DNA from: Methanobacteriota archaeon
GTDB lineage: Archaea; Hydrothermarchaeota; Hydrothermarchaeia; Hydrothermarchaeales; JAADFM01
Direction: 5' to 3'
Length of the DNA stretch: 12,927 nt
Assembly (NCBI GenBank): GCA_013152845.1
Contig: JAADFM010000042.1
Location: 839-13,765, forward strand
The notes below the pieces were generated by a model. It was not told the origin of the DNA. It worked only from the letters and a program-made list of their open reading frames with translations, and did not search any database. Shown piece after piece: positions 4,187-12,048 of this stretch (position 1 is the first letter of the stretch; every line of letters starts with the position of its first letter). The translations under genes were made by a program, and so were the position numbers.

Positions 4187-4963
4187 ATGAGCAGGATAGA
4201 GGGCATCTTTTACCTGGAGGCCCAGGGCGACCAGAAGAGGGCCGTTGAGGACTCTCTGAAATCCCTGATGGCCGCCCTCAAGAGGGAGGAAGGGGTCGAG
4301 GTTCTGGGGGAGGCCCTAGAGGAGACGCTGGAGGAGGAGGGGATGTATTCCACGGCCGCCGAGGTGGAGCTTGGGTTTGCGGATTTCAATACCTACCTCA
4401 GGTGCGCCATAAAATACGGTCCATCGGCCATCGAGATAACAAGGCCCAACGAGACGGTGATTCCCGCCGACGAGTACCTCCTGACCGTGGGGGAGGTGGT
4501 GAGGGTTGCCAAGACCCTGTTCACAAAACACCGGGCAAGATACAGGTTTTACAGGTCTGACAAGGAGGCCAGGATAGGACTCTCGGAGGAGGAGATAGAG
4601 GGTCTCCTCGACCAGGGGGCCCTGCGGGTGAAGATTGTCGTGGAGGCCCGGGGGGGCTCGGAGGAGGATGCGGTGGAGGAACTCGTAAATGCGGTGAAGG
4701 AGGACCTCTTCATAAACAAGGCCAAGGCAAAGGCCATGGATGAGGGTTCCGGGTTCTCCGGCCTTGTGGGCATCGAGGCCTTCATGTACGAGGCCAGGAT
4801 ACTCTTCAATATCGGGGTGGCCCTGACACCGGTCCTGATAGAGATCATGGAGCCCGAGAAAATCCGGCTCAGCGCCCTGGACATCCAGGACATCGGGGTG
4901 GACATGGCGTCGGTCTTCTTCGAGCTGGCCCACAAGCTGGAACACGAAAAGAGGGTTAGGTGA
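4187..4963 (+). CDS. Uncharacterised archaeal protein with two internal repeats
   Basis: 258 residues, acidic and soluble, no signal peptide or membrane helix; I do not recognise the family. The protein appears to be two copies of a domain of about 110 residues. Copy 1 (about 5-115) has FYLEAQG, an amphipathic helix, then SAIEITRP (I82-P87). Copy 2 (about 146-256) has IVVEARG, a similar helix (EDAVEELVNAV), then VLIEIMEP (I218-P223), and each copy ends in a long helix (VGEVVRVAKTL; VDMASVFFELAHKL). A basic linker (KHRARYRFYRSDKEAR) and a short LSEEEIEGLL helix join them. The strand-helix pattern suggests an alpha/beta fold, perhaps a pseudo-dimer. No metal or nucleotide motif is visible. The ATG at 4187 is supported by a TATA box 26 nt upstream. 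Transcribed alone, divergent from the membrane protein. Confidence 0.8.
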   Translation: MSRIEGIFYLEAQGDQKRAVEDSLKSLMAALKREEGVEVLGEALEETLEEEGMYSTAAEVELGFADFNTYLRCAIKYGPSAIEITRPNETVIPADEYLLTVGEVVRVAKTLFTKHRARYRFYRSDKEARIGLSEEEIEGLLDQGALRVKIVVEARGGSEEDAVEELVNAVKEDLFINKAKAKAMDEGSGFSGLVGIEAFMYEARILFNIGVALTPVLIEIMEPEKIRLSALDIQDIGVDMASVFFELAHKLEHEKRVR

Positions 4964-5152: not shown

Positions 5153-5160
5153 CTTTAATA
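5153..5160 (+). promoter_or_regulatory. TATA box of the hdr operon
   Basis: CTTTAATA is the only AT-rich box near hdrC. A start site about 26 nt downstream would fall near 5183, giving a short leader of 16-22 nt that contains AAAGGA and GAGAGG, so this operon would be translated with a leader and Shine-Dalgarno sequence. Confidence 0.5.
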
Positions 5161-5198
5161 TTCTGCCGAGCTCATTGTCGGGGTAAAGGACGAGAGGC

Positions 5199-5743
5199 GT
5201 GTCAATGGTCATCAAAGAGACAGGAATCCTTCGGACGGCGTCGGGGGATGGGGAGTTTGTGGAGATGATAAAGGAGGCCGGGGGGGAGAACATAACCCGG
5301 TGCTACCAGTGCGGCACCTGTGTCGGCTCCTGTCCCGGGGGGATGAGCACACCATACCGGACCCGCAAGGTCATCCAGAAGGCCCTGATGGGCAGGAAGG
5401 AAGAGGTCCTCGAAAGCAGGGAGATATGGTACTGCACCACATGCTTCACCTGTTACGAGAGGTGCCCCCGGGGTGTGGACCCCACCGAGGTCATAATCGC
5501 CATAAGGAACGTGGCCGTAAAGGAGGGGATAGTGCCCGAGAACTTCAAGAAGAGCGCCCGCAACCTCCTCGCCACGCCACAGGTCACATCGTGCCCCTGA
5601 GGGACCCCGTGGGGAAACACCGGGTGCAGCTGGGGCTGGAACCCGTGCCTCCCACCGTCCAGAGGGACCCGCAGGCCCTGGAAGAGGTGAGGAGGATAGG
5701 GGAGCTGGTGGGTACAAAGGAACGGCTCAGGCTGGAGGAATAG
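5199..5743 (+). CDS. hdrC: Heterodisulfide reductase subunit C-like (HdrC), frameshifted by a 5-bp duplication
   Basis: HdrC is the iron-sulfur subunit that passes electrons to the HdrB disulfide-reducing site. Two full 4Fe-4S motifs are present: C35, C38, C41, C45 (CYQCGTCVGSCP) and C79, C82, C85, C89 (CTTCFTCYERCP). The frame then hits a stop at 5598-5600 after an unrelated tail (PQVTSCP), giving 133 aa. The expected C-terminus (TGHIVPLRDP...LGLEPVPPTVQRDP...) continues in the next frame to a TAG at 5741-5743. The break coincides with GCCACGCCAC (5571-5580): removing one GCCAC restores RNLLATGHIVP and a product of 179 aa, normal for HdrC. The start is GTG 5199 (AAAGGA 8 nt upstream) or ATG 5205 (GAGAGG 7 nt upstream); unresolved. 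First gene of the operon, with hdrB one base after its restored stop. Either a sequence error or a genuine disruption. Confidence 0.85.
5571..5580 (+). repeat. 5-bp tandem duplication (GCCAC twice) breaking hdrC
   Basis: Two adjacent copies of GCCAC at 5571-5575 and 5576-5580. Removing one joins the two hdrC frames exactly at the conserved ATGH segment, so this is the likely cause of the frameshift. Confidence 0.8.
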
Positions 5744-5744
5744 G

Positions 5745-6617
5745 ATGGAGTTCTCCCTCTTCCTTGGATGTACCGTGCCCAACGTATATCCCGGAATCGA
5801 GGCAGCCACCCGGCTCACCATGGAAAGACTCGGGGTGGAGCTTTTGGATATGGACGGGGCCTCCTGCTGCCCGGCTCCAGGGGCCTTTGGCTCGGTGGAC
5901 AGGTCCCTGTGGTATGCCCTGGGGGCCAGGAACCTCACCATCGCCGAGGCCCTGGAGGCAGACATCATGACGGTGTGCAGCGGCTGTTTCGGCACACTCT
6001 TCGAGGTGAACCACCGGTTGAAGGAGGACCCCGCGGCCAGGGAACGGGTCAACGGGGTCCTCGCCGAGGTGGGGCGGGAGTACCGGGGGGAGAGGGAGGT
6101 CAGGCATTACGTGGACGTCCTCTACCGGGACATCGGGGTGGATGAACTGGCCCGGGCGGCCACGCGCCCCCTGGAGGGCCTGAAGGTGGCGGTCCACTAC
6201 GGCTGCCATCTCCTCAAACCCAGCCGCGGCCGGTCCATAGACAGCCCAGAGAGGCCGAGGATGCTGGAGGAGCTCATCAGGGCCACGGGGGCCGAGACCG
6301 TGGAGTACAGGGACCAGCTCCTCTGCTGCGGCGGGGGAGGGGGGGTGAGGGGGAACAACCCGGAGGAGGCGATTTTCATCGCAGCCAGGAAACTGGAAGA
6401 GGTGAGGCGGGCCGATGCCGACCTCCTGGTGAACCCCTGCTCCTTCTGCACCCTCCACTACGATTTCTCCCAGCGGGAGATGCCCGGGGGCTCGCCCGAG
6501 GTCCCGATAATGCATTACGCCCAGTTCCTGGCCCTCGCCATGGACATGCGGCCGGAGCAGGTGGGCCTCCAGTACCATTCGGTCTCCCTGGCGGAGGTCC
6601 TGGAGAAGGTGGGATAG
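5745..6617 (+). CDS. hdrB: Heterodisulfide reductase subunit B-like (HdrB), two CCG domains
   Basis: HdrB carries the noncubane iron-sulfur clusters that reduce heterodisulfides (CoM-S-S-CoB in methanogens) or related disulfides. Both cysteine-rich CCG domains are complete: C9-x31-C41C42-x35-C78-x2-C81, and C154-x39-C194C195-x36-C232-x2-C235, matching the family spacing. Other landmarks are FLGCTVP at the N-terminus, HYGCHLLKPS, a CCGGGGGVR loop and NPCSFCTLHYD. 290 residues is the usual length. The ATG follows the restored hdrC stop by one base, with GGAGG about 7 nt upstream, so translation is probably coupled. HdrA, the flavin subunit, is not in the window, so the electron donor is unknown. 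Related CCG proteins occur in succinate/lactate/thiol reductases and in HdrDE; adjacency to an HdrC with two 4Fe-4S motifs favours the HdrCB arrangement. Confidence 0.92.
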   Translation: MEFSLFLGCTVPNVYPGIEAATRLTMERLGVELLDMDGASCCPAPGAFGSVDRSLWYALGARNLTIAEALEADIMTVCSGCFGTLFEVNHRLKEDPAARERVNGVLAEVGREYRGEREVRHYVDVLYRDIGVDELARAATRPLEGLKVAVHYGCHLLKPSRGRSIDSPERPRMLEELIRATGAETVEYRDQLLCCGGGGGVRGNNPEEAIFIAARKLEEVRRADADLLVNPCSFCTLHYDFSQREMPGGSPEVPIMHYAQFLALAMDMRPEQVGLQYHSVSLAEVLEKVG

Positions 6618-6628
6618 GATGGAGGAAC

Positions 6629-7120
6629 TTGAGCAGGCTTGCCACCCGGGAGATGGCGGTGGAGATGAAGAGGAAGGGTATGAGGACCGGGGATGCCATG
6701 GCGGCCCTGAGGAACGCCAAGTCAGTCCTCAACGAGTGCCGGCTGCGGCCGGAGTCCAGGGAGGTGCTCCTCGGCAAGGCCTACGAGATCATCGGGGATG
6801 CCCAGAAGGACCTCTTCATCCAGGCCGGCCCCCTGGGGGAGGAGTTCACCAGGAAGTGGGAGTCACATCTGAAGGAGGTCATGAAGGGGAAGAAGGTGGG
6901 GAAGTTCCCGGCCCCGGCCCGCAGCTTCTATCCGGGCATGCCCAGGGACGGGGGATGGGTGAGGATATCACGGGAGCTCGACCCCGAACTCATCAAGGCC
7001 CTGGAAGAGAGGTTCGGGCTGGATGTCGAGGAGGCCGACGGCGCCTTCATCCTGAAGGGAGACAGGGAGACCCTGAAGGAGGCCTTGAAGGAGATATCCA
7101 GGGTGGTGAGGCAGGGGTGA
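6629..7120 (+). CDS. Uncharacterised 163-aa archaeal protein in the hdr operon (DUF2096-like?)
   Basis: Soluble, helix-rich N-terminal half with MKRKG...LRNAKSVLNE (about 13-35) followed by a long amphipathic helix, then a basic linker (MKGKKVGKFPAPARSF), a SFYPGMPRDGGWVRI segment (about 98-112) and a C-terminal alpha/beta part ending FILKGDRETLKEALKEISRVV. The layout reminds me of the archaeal DUF2096 family, from memory and not checked; no enzymatic motif is visible. The start is uncertain: TTG 6629 follows GGAGGA (6621-6626) by only 2 nt, and the next in-frame ATG (6653) would remove eight residues. It begins 11 nt after hdrB and its stop overlaps the next start as GTGA, so it is co-translated with its neighbours. 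That context suggests an accessory or partner for HdrCB; this is inference. Confidence 0.72.
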   Translation: MSRLATREMAVEMKRKGMRTGDAMAALRNAKSVLNECRLRPESREVLLGKAYEIIGDAQKDLFIQAGPLGEEFTRKWESHLKEVMKGKKVGKFPAPARSFYPGMPRDGGWVRISRELDPELIKALEERFGLDVEEADGAFILKGDRETLKEALKEISRVVRQG

Positions 7121-7911
7121 CCATAGACTGCCACGTGGCCCTGACCCTCCGGAAGAGGAACAACCCCGAGGTGGAGGTCCTACTCGGGGCCATGCAGGCC
7201 CACGGCATCGATAAGGCGGTTATCGTGCCGGTCTGCCCCGGGACAGGTGAGGAGGAGATGGTCAGGATAAACGATTCCGTGCATACCGAGGCCATAGGCT
7301 ACTACGCCATCGAGGGATTCGCCACCGTGAACCCCCGCTCCCCGGCGGCCCAGGAGGAGCTTGACCGGGCGGTGCGGGAGCTGGGTCTTAAGGGCTTGAG
7401 CATCGACCCGGCCGTCCAGGGGTTCCGCTTCGGAGACGACGAGTTCTGGAGCCTGATGGAGGTGGTCAACTCCCTGGGGGTCCCTGTATTCTGCAGGAGT
7501 GCCAGGTCCGAGTTCTTCGTTACCGAGGAGATAAACGAGACCGTCATCAGCTTCCCGGAGGTGCCATTCATCTTCACCCAGATGGGTCTGGAGAGCCCGG
7601 GAGGCAAGTTCTCAAAGCTCTTCGGCGAGGGCAACGTCTATTTCGAGACCTCCCGGGTGCCCCCTGCATACCTCATGGAGGCCGTGAAGGAATACGGGGC
7701 CGGGCGGCTGGTATTCGGCTCGGGGTACCGGGGCGGGCAGTACCCGGCCGAGGAACTGGAGAAGCTCCAGGCCATGGACATATCCGAGGAGGAGAGGGAG
7801 GCCGTCCTGGGGGGCAACATCTCCCGGCTCCTGGGCCTCTCCCCCCTGGCCGAGAAGGGCAGGAGCAGGCTGAGAGGCATTCTGGAGGGCCTGCCTTTTT
7901 TCAGGAAGTAG
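7117..7911 (+). CDS. Amidohydrolase-fold protein (COG2159-like) lacking metal ligands, probable pseudoenzyme
   Basis: 264 residues with the sequence landmarks of TIM-barrel metal-dependent amidohydrolases: N-terminal IDCHV, HGIDKAVIVP, GLKGLSIDP (90-98), GVPVFC (121-126), FIFTQMG (151-157), NVYFETS, RLVFGSGY (197-204) and a final GGNISRLLGL. Active members have HxH near the N-terminus, His after the third and fourth landmark strands and Asp in FGSD. Here these are H6-V-A8 (second His lost), C126/R127 for the first later His, Q155 for the next, and G203 for Asp. Only the first His remains, so metal-dependent hydrolysis looks unlikely and a scaffold, binding or regulatory role is more plausible. 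The GTG start at 7117 overlaps the preceding stop (GTGA), making it the last gene of the hdr operon. Its 3' end overlaps the convergent response regulator by 11 bp. Confidence 0.82.
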   Translation: MTIDCHVALTLRKRNNPEVEVLLGAMQAHGIDKAVIVPVCPGTGEEEMVRINDSVHTEAIGYYAIEGFATVNPRSPAAQEELDRAVRELGLKGLSIDPAVQGFRFGDDEFWSLMEVVNSLGVPVFCRSARSEFFVTEEINETVISFPEVPFIFTQMGLESPGGKFSKLFGEGNVYFETSRVPPAYLMEAVKEYGAGRLVFGSGYRGGQYPAEELEKLQAMDISEEEREAVLGGNISRLLGLSPLAEKGRSRLRGILEGLPFFRK

Positions 7912-9736: not shown

Positions 9737-11282
9737 TCACTCCTCAGTGCCCAGGGCGTCCAGGGCGGCATTGATTTCATCGGCCAGGGACGCCACGGCC
9801 TCTTCGCTGATGACCCCCCTGCGCAGCGCCTCGAAGAGTGCGCTCTTCTGGGCCAGGAGGGCCCGCCGCCGGGCGACGTGCCTCTCCCCTGCCCTTATCT
9901 CTTCGTGTTTGCCGACTATCCCCGAGATCTCCTCTCCAAGGGCGTCCTTGCGCTGTGCGTACTCGGAAATCAGTTCCTTGAGGACGGTCTTGGACACCTC
10001 CCTGGCCTCGTCCATGCGCTTGAGCTCTTCCAGGGCGGCCTTGACGGCGATGGACTCCCCGAGCTTCCTCTCGTAGCGGACCCTGAAATCGCTCACCCTC
10101 CTCAGGCCGAACTTCGGCACTATCCGCTCGAAGGAGAGTCCCTGGACCACCAGGGAGAAGAGGACCACACCGAAGGTCATGGCCAGTATCTCCTCGCGCC
10201 CCGGCATCTCCCTGGGGAACCAGGGCCACGGGTATGGTCCCGTGGAGCCCGCCCCAGAATGCGGTGTGCTGCCAGCTCAGGGGTATCCTGTCCTTGGAGA
10301 CCCGGTTGAAGATAGTGTATAGGGGGTATACCGTCAACCCCCTCGCCAGGAGGACGGCCATGATGGCGGCACCTATCTCAGGGACCCTTGCGGCCAGGAT
10401 ATCGATGTGGATTTCCTTTCCGATGAGGATGAAGACCAGGGAGTTTATGACAAAGACGGCCAGGTCCCAGAAGGTGGTCAGGGCCACCTTGGTGGTGGGA
10501 CTCATGGCCAGGAGGCGCCCGTAGTTTCCTACGATGAGGCCTGCCACCACCACGCCGATGACCCCGGAGGTGTGCAGCTTTTCAGCGATTATGAAGACGG
10601 AAAAGGCCAGGATGAGGGTCACCGTGACCTCGATGAGGTGGTCGTCTATCTGGGCTAACGCCTTGTAGGCCACGTAACCAAGGACCAGGCCCACCAGCCC
10701 GCCGCCCAGGACCACGAAGACGAAACTCAGGCTCCCGGCCGCCAGGTCGAGGTTCCCGGTCTCTATCATGCCCAGGATGATGGCGAAGATGACAACGCCG
10801 GTGCCGTCGTTGAAGACACTCTCTCCCTCCACCAGGGTCGACAGCTTCTTTGGGACCCCGAGTCTCTTGAAGGTGGCAAGGACCGAGACCGGGTCCGTGG
10901 GCGATATCATGGCACCGAAGAGGAGGGCCAGGGGGAGGTCCATGCCGGTAAGCGCGTTTATCAGGTAGCCCACAACGGCCGTGGAGATGATTATCCCGGG
11001 AACAGCCAGGAGGAGGATGGGCCTGAGGTTGTCCCATACCTGGTCCAGGTCCATGCGGAGGGCGCCCTCGAAGAGCAGGGGCGGGAGGAAGACGAAGAAG
11101 ACCAGTTCCTGGCTCAGTTCGATGTCAGGGACTAGGCCCCAGGTCCCCACCAGGAGCCCCACCAGGACGAGGGCGCTGGTGTAGGGGAGTTTGATGTACT
11201 TGGTGGTGATGGCAACCCCTATGGCAAGGAGGAGCAGGACCAGGAGCTCGCTTATCTCCATGACCGCCATGGCTTCGGACAT
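9737..11282 (-). CDS. nhaP: Na+/H+ antiporter, CPA1/NhaP family, frameshifted at a C4 run
   Basis: A membrane exchanger moving Na+ (or K+) out against H+. The first 355 residues hold multiple transmembrane helices with CPA1 landmarks: FLPPLLFEGALRMD, SPTDPVSVLATFKRLGVP, LVEGESVFNDGTGVV (the ND ion-binding pair), SGVIGVVVAGLIVGN and WGGLHGTIPVALV. After V355 the frame turns to noise, while the expected last helix (REEILAMTFGVVLFSLVVQGL) and a charged coiled-coil-like tail of about 110 residues lie in the next frame, ending at 9737. The join is a run of four C on the coding strand (10214-10217); dropping one C gives VALVPREMPGREEI and a 514-aa protein of normal length. The ATG at 11282 is chosen because a TATA box lies about 26 nt upstream; further upstream open sequence is antisense to the SpoIIM gene. 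Divergent from that gene. Confidence 0.88.
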
Positions 11283-11303
11283 GGTATCTATTCTGGCCCT
11301 CCA

Positions 11304-11311
11304 TATAAAAA
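11304..11311 (-). promoter_or_regulatory. TATA box of nhaP (minus strand)
   Basis: Reads TTTTATAT on the minus strand, centred about 25-26 nt before the ATG at 11282, indicating a leaderless transcript. It lies 13 bp from the divergent TATA box of the SpoIIM-like gene. Confidence 0.55.
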
Positions 11312-11323
11312 ACCCTTGCGAAC

Positions 11324-11331
11324 TTTTTAAT
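11324..11331 (+). promoter_or_regulatory. TATA box of the SpoIIM-like gene
   Basis: TTTTTAAT is centred about 28 nt before the ATG at 11356. With the minus-strand box 13 bp away it forms a back-to-back divergent promoter in a 73-bp intergenic region. Confidence 0.5.
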
Positions 11332-11355
11332 CCGGCCGCAGGGGATAATATACAC

Positions 11356-12048
11356 ATGAGCCTCCGTCTCGCCGTCCGGTTGTGGACCCTCTCACTGGCC
11401 CTGGGGGCCCTAGTTGCCACGGCCCTGGATGAGGCGGCACCGGCATCCAGCGGCGCGGTGGCGGCGGGTATTTCGTCCCTCCCGGAGCTTGCATCCCCCC
11501 TGGCTTTTGGGAACCCCTTCCTCCTGATATTCATCAAGAACTCCCTGGCCTCCCTGACGATAATCTTTCTGGGACCCCTCCTCTGCGTCCTGGAGATGTG
11601 GATATTCACGTCTGTCCCGGAGGAGACCTACGGGTTCCTGGAGTCCCTGACCGCACCCTTCTACCGGGTAGCCGGGACCCTCCACCCACCCTTCAAAGAC
11701 CTGGCCCCCTTCTTCAGGTCGTGCTATTTCTATCTCTACTTCGTCCCCCTCCTGGCCCTGGCTGCCAACGGGGCGGTCCTGGGCTTCCTCCTGGTCCTCT
11801 ACACCCCCGGGCACGTCATCGGGTACCTCCTGCCACACGGCATCCTGGAGTTCCCGGCCTTTTTCGCCAGCGTTATCCTCGCCCTGGGGTTCGCCCGCGA
11901 CCTGGAAGGACCCATATCCCGGGCCGAGCTGGACGGACTGAAGGCAGGGCTGGGCGGGCTTTCAAACCGGCGGACCCTCCTCCGGGCGGCCGCCATCCAG
12001 CTCCTACTGCTCCTTGCGGCCTACCTGGAGGTCGTCAGCGCTCCATGA
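11356..12048 (+). CDS. SpoIIM/DUF95-family integral membrane protein
   Basis: 230 residues with several transmembrane helices. Helix 1 is about 5-24, followed by an Ala/Ser/Pro-rich loop, then FLLIFIKNSLASLTIIFLGP (about 55-74). A polar loop of about 45 residues (EETYGFLESL...FKDLAPFFRSC) precedes the paired family motifs AANGAVLGF (136-144) and LPHGILEFPA (159-168), with a final helix at about 210-226. The 'iF.nN' helix, 'NG..lG' and 'LPHGi.E' are hallmarks of SpoIIM-like proteins. In Bacillus SpoIIM works in forespore engulfment; archaeal homologues have no known role and the name implies none. The ATG at 11356 is set by the TATA box; the open frame upstream reaches into the antiporter gene and is discounted. 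The 3' end overlaps the convergent ABC ATPase by 14 bp. Confidence 0.85.
   Translation: MSLRLAVRLWTLSLALGALVATALDEAAPASSGAVAAGISSLPELASPLAFGNPFLLIFIKNSLASLTIIFLGPLLCVLEMWIFTSVPEETYGFLESLTAPFYRVAGTLHPPFKDLAPFFRSCYFYLYFVPLLALAANGAVLGFLLVLYTPGHVIGYLLPHGILEFPAFFASVILALGFARDLEGPISRAELDGLKAGLGGLSNRRTLLRAAAIQLLLLLAAYLEVVSAP

Follow-up and report, generated by a model that had tools for sequence, protein, structure and literature searches.

Heterodisulfide reductase (Hdr) closes the energy cycle of methanogens. We here describe a block of four genes, hdrC, hdrB and two partners, on a 12,927-nucleotide stretch of DNA (C42:839-13765, contig JAADFM010000042.1; hereafter the window) from a metagenome-assembled genome (MAG) of the archaeal order Hydrothermarchaeales (assembly GCA_013152845.1; 1.17 Mb in 177 contigs, 62.7% complete). 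The partners of hdrCB are a gene for a 163-residue protein related to DUF2096 and a gene for an amidohydrolase-fold protein. The features of the block are as follows:

5154..5161, plus strand: TATA-like box TTTAATAT, seen in the sequence 38 bp 5' of the hdrC start
5199..5600, plus strand: N-terminal frame of hdrC, 133 residues, with both 4Fe-4S motifs (CYQCGTCVGSCP and CTTCFTCYERCP); TIGR03290, 132.9 bits, and Fer4 domains
5571..5580, plus strand: tandem GCCAC GCCAC, a 5-bp repeat seen in the sequence, where HdrC changes frame
5582..5743 (start approximate), plus strand: C-terminal part of HdrC in a different frame; TIGR03290 positions 105-136, 21.4 bits
5745..6617, plus strand: hdrB, 290 residues, two CCG domains (PF02754) and ten cysteines; TIGR03288, 380.5 bits, and alignment
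6619..7120, plus strand: DUF2096-related gene, with a 163-residue open reading frame (ORF) at 6629-7120 from a TTG start; PF23100 and PF09869, both below cut-off, alignments and reading frames
7117..7911, plus strand: amidohydrolase-fold pseudoenzyme, 264 residues, GTG start; PF04909, fold match 3s4t and loss of ligands

HdrB passes the equivalog cut-off of TIGR03288 (380.5 versus 345.15 bits), and its cluster cysteines (C9, C41, C42, C78, C81, C154, C194, C195, C232 and C235) are invariant in an alignment of five sequences. The nearest PDB chains are the HdrB subunits of methanogen Hdr complexes, HdrABC-Mvh and HdrABC-Elp, which match over the whole length (341.2 bits). Judged from its sequence, the protein is a methanogen-type HdrB. 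Proteins of the QmoC, SdhE and TfrB types have CCG or 4Fe-4S domains in common with the window proteins, but the latter remain far under the respective cut-offs (89.1 of 300 bits for QmoC, 138.3 of 500 for SdhE and 77.9 of 385 for TfrB).

The hdrC gene starts with GTG at 5199 and is interrupted by a change of frame at the tandem repeat. Both 4Fe-4S cysteine motifs lie within the 133-residue frame, and the two frames score 132.9 and 21.4 bits on TIGR03290 (cut-off 160); the HdrC of Candidatus (Ca.) Hydrothermarchaeum profundi JdFR-18 (G004), encoded by a single open frame, is likewise under the cut-off with 154.6 bits. The preliminary description of this DNA reported four overlapping or abutting genes. 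This is correct for hdrB, the 163-residue ORF and the amidohydrolase ORF, all on the plus strand and the last two joined by a GTGA overlap at 7117-7120, but not for hdrC, which is not one frame. Its gap of 1 bp between hdrC and hdrB is obtained only if the frame break is bridged (5743 versus 5745), as the frame opened at 5199 already ends at 5600, and its gap of 11 bp behind hdrB applies to the TTG start, whereas the likely N-terminus is at an ATG (6619) in another frame. A third frame switch is seen near 10,200, in a minus-strand gene (9737-11609) that we take to encode a Na+/H+ antiporter-like protein. Since this gene and hdrC are frame-switched in the same window, the break in hdrC points to an assembly or sequencing error rather than to decay of this operon alone, and the MAG probably carries indel errors, given three observed or suspected frame switches in the window. 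The TATA-like box was recognised by the archaeal promoter pattern and is a possible promoter of the operon. Directly 5' of the block, a 258-residue protein (4187-4963) has no match over cut-off in Pfam or NCBIfam.

The product of the third gene scores below the gathering cut-off with both halves (PF23100, 21.2 of 26 bits; PF09869, 15.9 of 24.6 bits) and is therefore called DUF2096-related. It aligns over its full length with its kin and is 42% identical to the protein of Ca. H. profundi, which itself scores 40.3 bits on PF23100, and ten Hydrothermarchaeia genomes exceed the cut-off of the N-terminal DUF2096 profile. By these alignments the ORF is a distant relative of DUF2096. Its relatives begin with M-x-L-E-x-L-Q-Q-x-W, and the window reads M-E-E-L-E-Q-A from the ATG at 6619 in the other frame; a second frame break is thus suspected at the 5' end of the gene, with few residues behind it. 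The structure model (predicted local distance difference test score, pLDDT, 85.1; predicted template modelling score, pTM, 0.55) consists of four helices followed by strand-helix-strand-strand-helix, and KH domains are among the best matches in a fold search with the DUF2096 model, though weak. The protein is accordingly predicted to combine a helical N-terminal half with a KH-like C-terminal half. The DUF2096 profile gives chance-level matches only against the PDB, which contains methanogen Hdr complexes. A full-text search of one open literature library returned no naming of DUF2096, nor of DUF749, MTH1881 or MTH1878.

The last gene encodes a member of Amidohydro_2 (PF04909; 71.9 bits, cut-off 26.4), modelled as a TIM barrel (pLDDT 85.6; fold match 3s4t, E 3.3e-13). 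Amidohydrolases bind their metal through the ligand set HxH, H, H and D. At these five positions, which would hold H, H, H, H and D in an active enzyme, the window protein has H, A, R, Q and G, so that it shares the barrel with enzymes of the family such as dihydroxybenzoate decarboxylase but lacks four of the five ligands, and the preliminary description of a dead amidohydrolase is borne out. Among 13 Hydrothermarchaeia proteins, all five ligands are present in three (G002, G013 and G017), as they are in the relatives P0010 and P0011, and the other ten display seven distinct patterns of residues. The deepest loss is common to the window protein and its two metagenome relatives, the protein of Ca. 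H. profundi retains four ligands, and a bacterial relative (P0009) is devoid of three. Ligands lost at differing positions in proteins that are kept suggest, at the level of sequence, that catalysis is dispensable although the protein is retained. In Ca. H. profundi, no ATG, GTG or TTG is found ahead of the first strand of the amidohydrolase gene (L048 6798-6920), which may use an alternative start codon.

There is no hdrA in the four-gene block, as was pointed out before, and this was regarded as an anomaly that could imply a different electron donor. The genome, however, has two FlpD/MvhD matches, one of which adjoins a 663-residue HdrA on contig C26 that matches chain 8rvu_a of a methanogen complex over residues 2-656 (971.7 bits). 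A CCG-domain search finds none on C26, hence this hdrA locus holds no HdrB of its own and is not the standard hdrA locus with its own hdrCB that had been considered as a full explanation of the pathway. According to a part of PMC3087415, hdrA is located apart from hdrBC in most methanogens, and in two Methanothermobacter species mvhDGAB, hdrA and hdrBC are three units that do not adjoin one another. Because HdrA and MvhD are encoded on C26 and such separation is usual, the occurrence of hdrCB without an adjoining hdrA is ordinary and gives no ground for assuming another donor.

The proposed genome search for hdrA, mvhD and mcr recovered the first two but not the third: McrA was found in none of the 23 Hydrothermarchaeia genomes of the order and class, our own MAG (62.7% complete) included, and the same 23 genomes yielded no ComA. 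In this respect they differ from the methanogens with HdrABC-Mvh or HdrABC-Elp. DsrA is above cut-off in our MAG (461.1 bits, with one internal stop), and DsrC is present in 19 of the 23 genomes, ours among them. On contig C16 we find genes that we take to encode AprB, AprA, QmoA, QmoB, QmoC and Sat. On contig C4 (L019) of the same Mcr-less genome, presumed HdrD- and HdrE-like genes adjoin others that we read as MtrH-like, corrinoid-protein-like and activator-like, and Ca. H. profundi also has a similar HdrE-HdrD pair (L242). A 446-residue protein on contig C47 (L020) fuses HdrB-like and HdrC-like parts; a gene nearby is presumably glutamate-synthase-like. Sulfate reduction genes together with hdrBCD, and absence of mcr, have been reported for Hydrothermarchaeota in a section of PMC6775978.

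DUF2096 appears as a neighbour of hdrCB well beyond the window. HdrB is over the cut-off in two of the 23 Hydrothermarchaeia (the window genome and Ca. H. profundi), and DUF2096 is directly behind hdrB in both; the complete order hdrC-hdrB-DUF2096-amidohydrolase recurs in Ca. H. profundi (L048/L126), which belongs to another family of the order and whose HdrB is 55% identical to that of the window. In a broader set of 61 genomes of relatives, nine have HdrB over the cut-off, and DUF2096 is adjacent in four of these (G000, our MAG; G004; G023 and G045). Moreover, in a sample of 110 Methanobacteriota genomes evenly drawn from a larger group (HdrB at E 1e-80 or better), DUF2096 occurs in 105, HdrB in 103 and both in 102. 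In 94 of the 102 genomes, DUF2096 follows hdrB on the same strand at a distance of no more than 2 kb, with the profile matches 367-1,975 bp apart; in the other eight, it is 3,951 bp away in one and 473 kb away in another (G068), and the genes are on separate contigs in six. Of the 80 best-ranking named HdrB loci (out of 547 candidates; some fetched stretches are short), 15 contain DUF2096: in 13 of them it follows hdrB within 2 kb, and in L141 and L144, both Methanocaldococcales-like, it is about 4.5 and 5.3 kb downstream.

The hdrBC unit of Methanothermobacter resembles the window in its hdrC-hdrB order and in having hdrA elsewhere (a part of PMC3087415), and it carries MTH1880 (PDB 1iqo) downstream. 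In the Methanothermobacter-type loci L111 and L112, DUF2096 is downstream as in the window, but a homologue of MTH1880 lies in between; that of L111 matches PDB 1iqo. An MTH1880-type small protein is found at this place in all close named loci except one (12/13; the exception, L126, is that of Ca. H. profundi), and all 12 are from Methanobacteriaceae. The window, in contrast, has no such gene between hdrB and DUF2096, the amidohydrolase fold follows instead, and neither DUF749, the family of MTH1880, nor McrA was found in our MAG. We also looked for DUF749 in Hydrothermarchaeia and rejected a link with MTH1880 there: DUF749 is present in 8 of the 23 genomes, not in ours, and where it was read it is away from DUF2096. 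In four Hydrothermarchaeales genomes (L242, L243, L245 and L246) it is at or near a gene that we take to be Mtd, and in G012 (L244) it follows a presumably DPH5-like gene.

The amidohydrolase, on the other hand, is kept with DUF2096 rather than with hdrCB, so that only one part of the expected conserved neighbourhood was recovered. DUF2096 is found in 17 of the 23 Hydrothermarchaeia genomes, and the amidohydrolase is adjacent to it in 13 of the 17 (our MAG, G001, G002, G004, G006, G010, G011, G012, G013, G014, G017, G018 and G021), as detected with profiles built from most of these same sequences; it is not in the stretch fetched around DUF2096 in G007, G008, G009 and G019. An order recurring in 13 of 17 loci is more than chance, and the remaining flanking genes vary. 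Only two genomes have the amidohydrolase beside hdrCB, and 11 of the 13 pair loci are without hdrCB, including G011, in which the contig ends just upstream.

Based on these observations, we propose, at a probability of roughly 0.55, that the block encodes an HdrBC module of the standard type in an archaeon with Dsr and presumably Apr but without Mcr, served by HdrA-MvhD in trans, with DUF2096 as an accessory protein and the amidohydrolase as the partner of DUF2096. HdrB and HdrC would reduce the disulfide as one arm of a cytoplasmic HdrABC of the ordinary kind, and we infer that they pair with the HdrA encoded on C26. Electrons would then pass from an MvhD-linked donor to the HdrA flavin, on to HdrC and through the two non-cubane clusters of HdrB to a disulfide. 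Because neither McrA nor ComA turned up in the 23 genomes, the substrate is probably not the heterodisulfide of coenzymes M and B (CoM-S-S-CoB) made via the Mcr/ComA route, an argument that covers Mcr and ComA and leaves other routes to coenzyme M outside; DsrC-type thiols are a candidate because DsrC is present. DUF2096 would be an old hdrCB neighbour common to this lineage and Methanobacteriota, and from this neighbourhood it most likely serves in the expression or assembly of HdrBC through its KH-like half. The absence of matches in the PDB and the proteins listed for active Hdr fractions in a part of PMC12350162 argue against a stoichiometric DUF2096 subunit, but not against a transient role. 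The amidohydrolase fold would be a pseudoenzyme that partners DUF2096 and not HdrCB.

Several observations weigh against this proposal. The hdrC gene of the window is broken, and products of further HdrB/C-like genes on C107, C47 and C31 could also meet the HdrA of C26. The 94 close cases in Methanobacteriota belong to one clade and are related, not independent, and of the 80 named loci, 65 are without DUF2096 in the fetched stretch, many of these from Methanosarcinales and Methanomicrobiales. Among the nine HdrB-positive relatives, DUF2096 is unmatched in G035 and G050, and it is present yet unlinked to hdrB in G030, G043 and G052. Finally, of the 17 Hydrothermarchaeia genomes in which DUF2096 was found, 15 lack an HdrB above the cut-off, which indicates that DUF2096 has some role apart from this type of HdrB.

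The loci where both genes exist apart, and the retention of DUF2096 without this hdrCB in most Hydrothermarchaeia, would also fit a history shared by ancestral neighbours under slow change of gene order, with no joint function. A gene that we take to be GGPP-synthase-like (geranylgeranyl diphosphate) is also near both in several lineages: in Methanocaldococcus (L141 5289-11262), hdrC-hdrB are followed by what we read as RNase-J-like, GGPP-synthase-like, DUF749 and DUF2096 genes, and the presumed GGPP-synthase-like gene also flanks the DUF2096-amidohydrolase pair in several Hydrothermarchaeales. However, the order is kept in 94 of 102 Methanobacteriota genomes across many genera, and in 12 of 12 close-order Methanobacteriaceae loci a second small gene intervenes; we hence regard shared history as the sole explanation as unlikely.

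We rejected a recent acquisition of an hdr cassette from methanogens, as the phylogenies argue against it: the window HdrB and that of Ca. H. profundi form their own clade outside Methanobacteriaceae (99/98), and the DUF2096 sequences of Hydrothermarchaeia and of methanogens fall into separate clades (99/96 each), with long branches flagged in both trees and the composition of the window HdrB flagged as well.

Alternatively, the block may be a decaying relic of ancestral methanogenesis, with a truly broken hdrC. The frame break in hdrC, the one suspected in the DUF2096 gene and the missing McrA are in line with this, and the methanogenesis marker m32 is termed a remnant in Hydrothermarchaeota in a passage of PMC9635834; m32 could not be matched to any gene of this locus. 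Decay nevertheless appears improbable to us, as HdrB is intact with its cysteines kept, the hdrC frame of Ca. H. profundi is open, and the frame-broken antiporter-like gene makes errors likely. Two amidohydrolase relatives (P0007 and P0008) are moreover 66-68% identical over the whole length, hence the protein is maintained.

A single complex of all four products, working as a variant disulfide or thiol reductase with a donor other than HdrA, would fit the tight spacing with its GTGA overlap and the identical four-gene order in Ca. H. profundi, but is very improbable because the genome encodes HdrA and MvhD, hdrCB is usually separate from hdrA (a part of PMC3087415), 11 of 13 pair loci are without hdrCB and no DUF2096 match is found in the PDB, which contains Hdr complexes, and also in view of the proteins listed for active fractions in a part of PMC12350162.

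More tentatively, and with less than even confidence, DUF2096 may represent an ancient and unrecognised accessory of HdrBC that acts by KH-like control of its synthesis or cluster assembly and is conserved in almost all of the sampled Methanobacteriota and the majority of Hydrothermarchaeia. In the latter, a pseudo-amidohydrolase would have joined it as a partner and lost its metal site repeatedly, and DUF2096 and this partner would persist together at loci without hdrCB. To our knowledge, the cluster building and gene control of heterodisulfide reductase are poorly understood. An unknown gene that closely follows hdrB in the majority of the sampled Methanobacteriota, and also does so in an Mcr-less Dsr lineage, is a testable candidate for a helper of the enzyme, and the eroding site of the amidohydrolase offers a natural gradation between an apparent enzyme and a pseudoenzyme.

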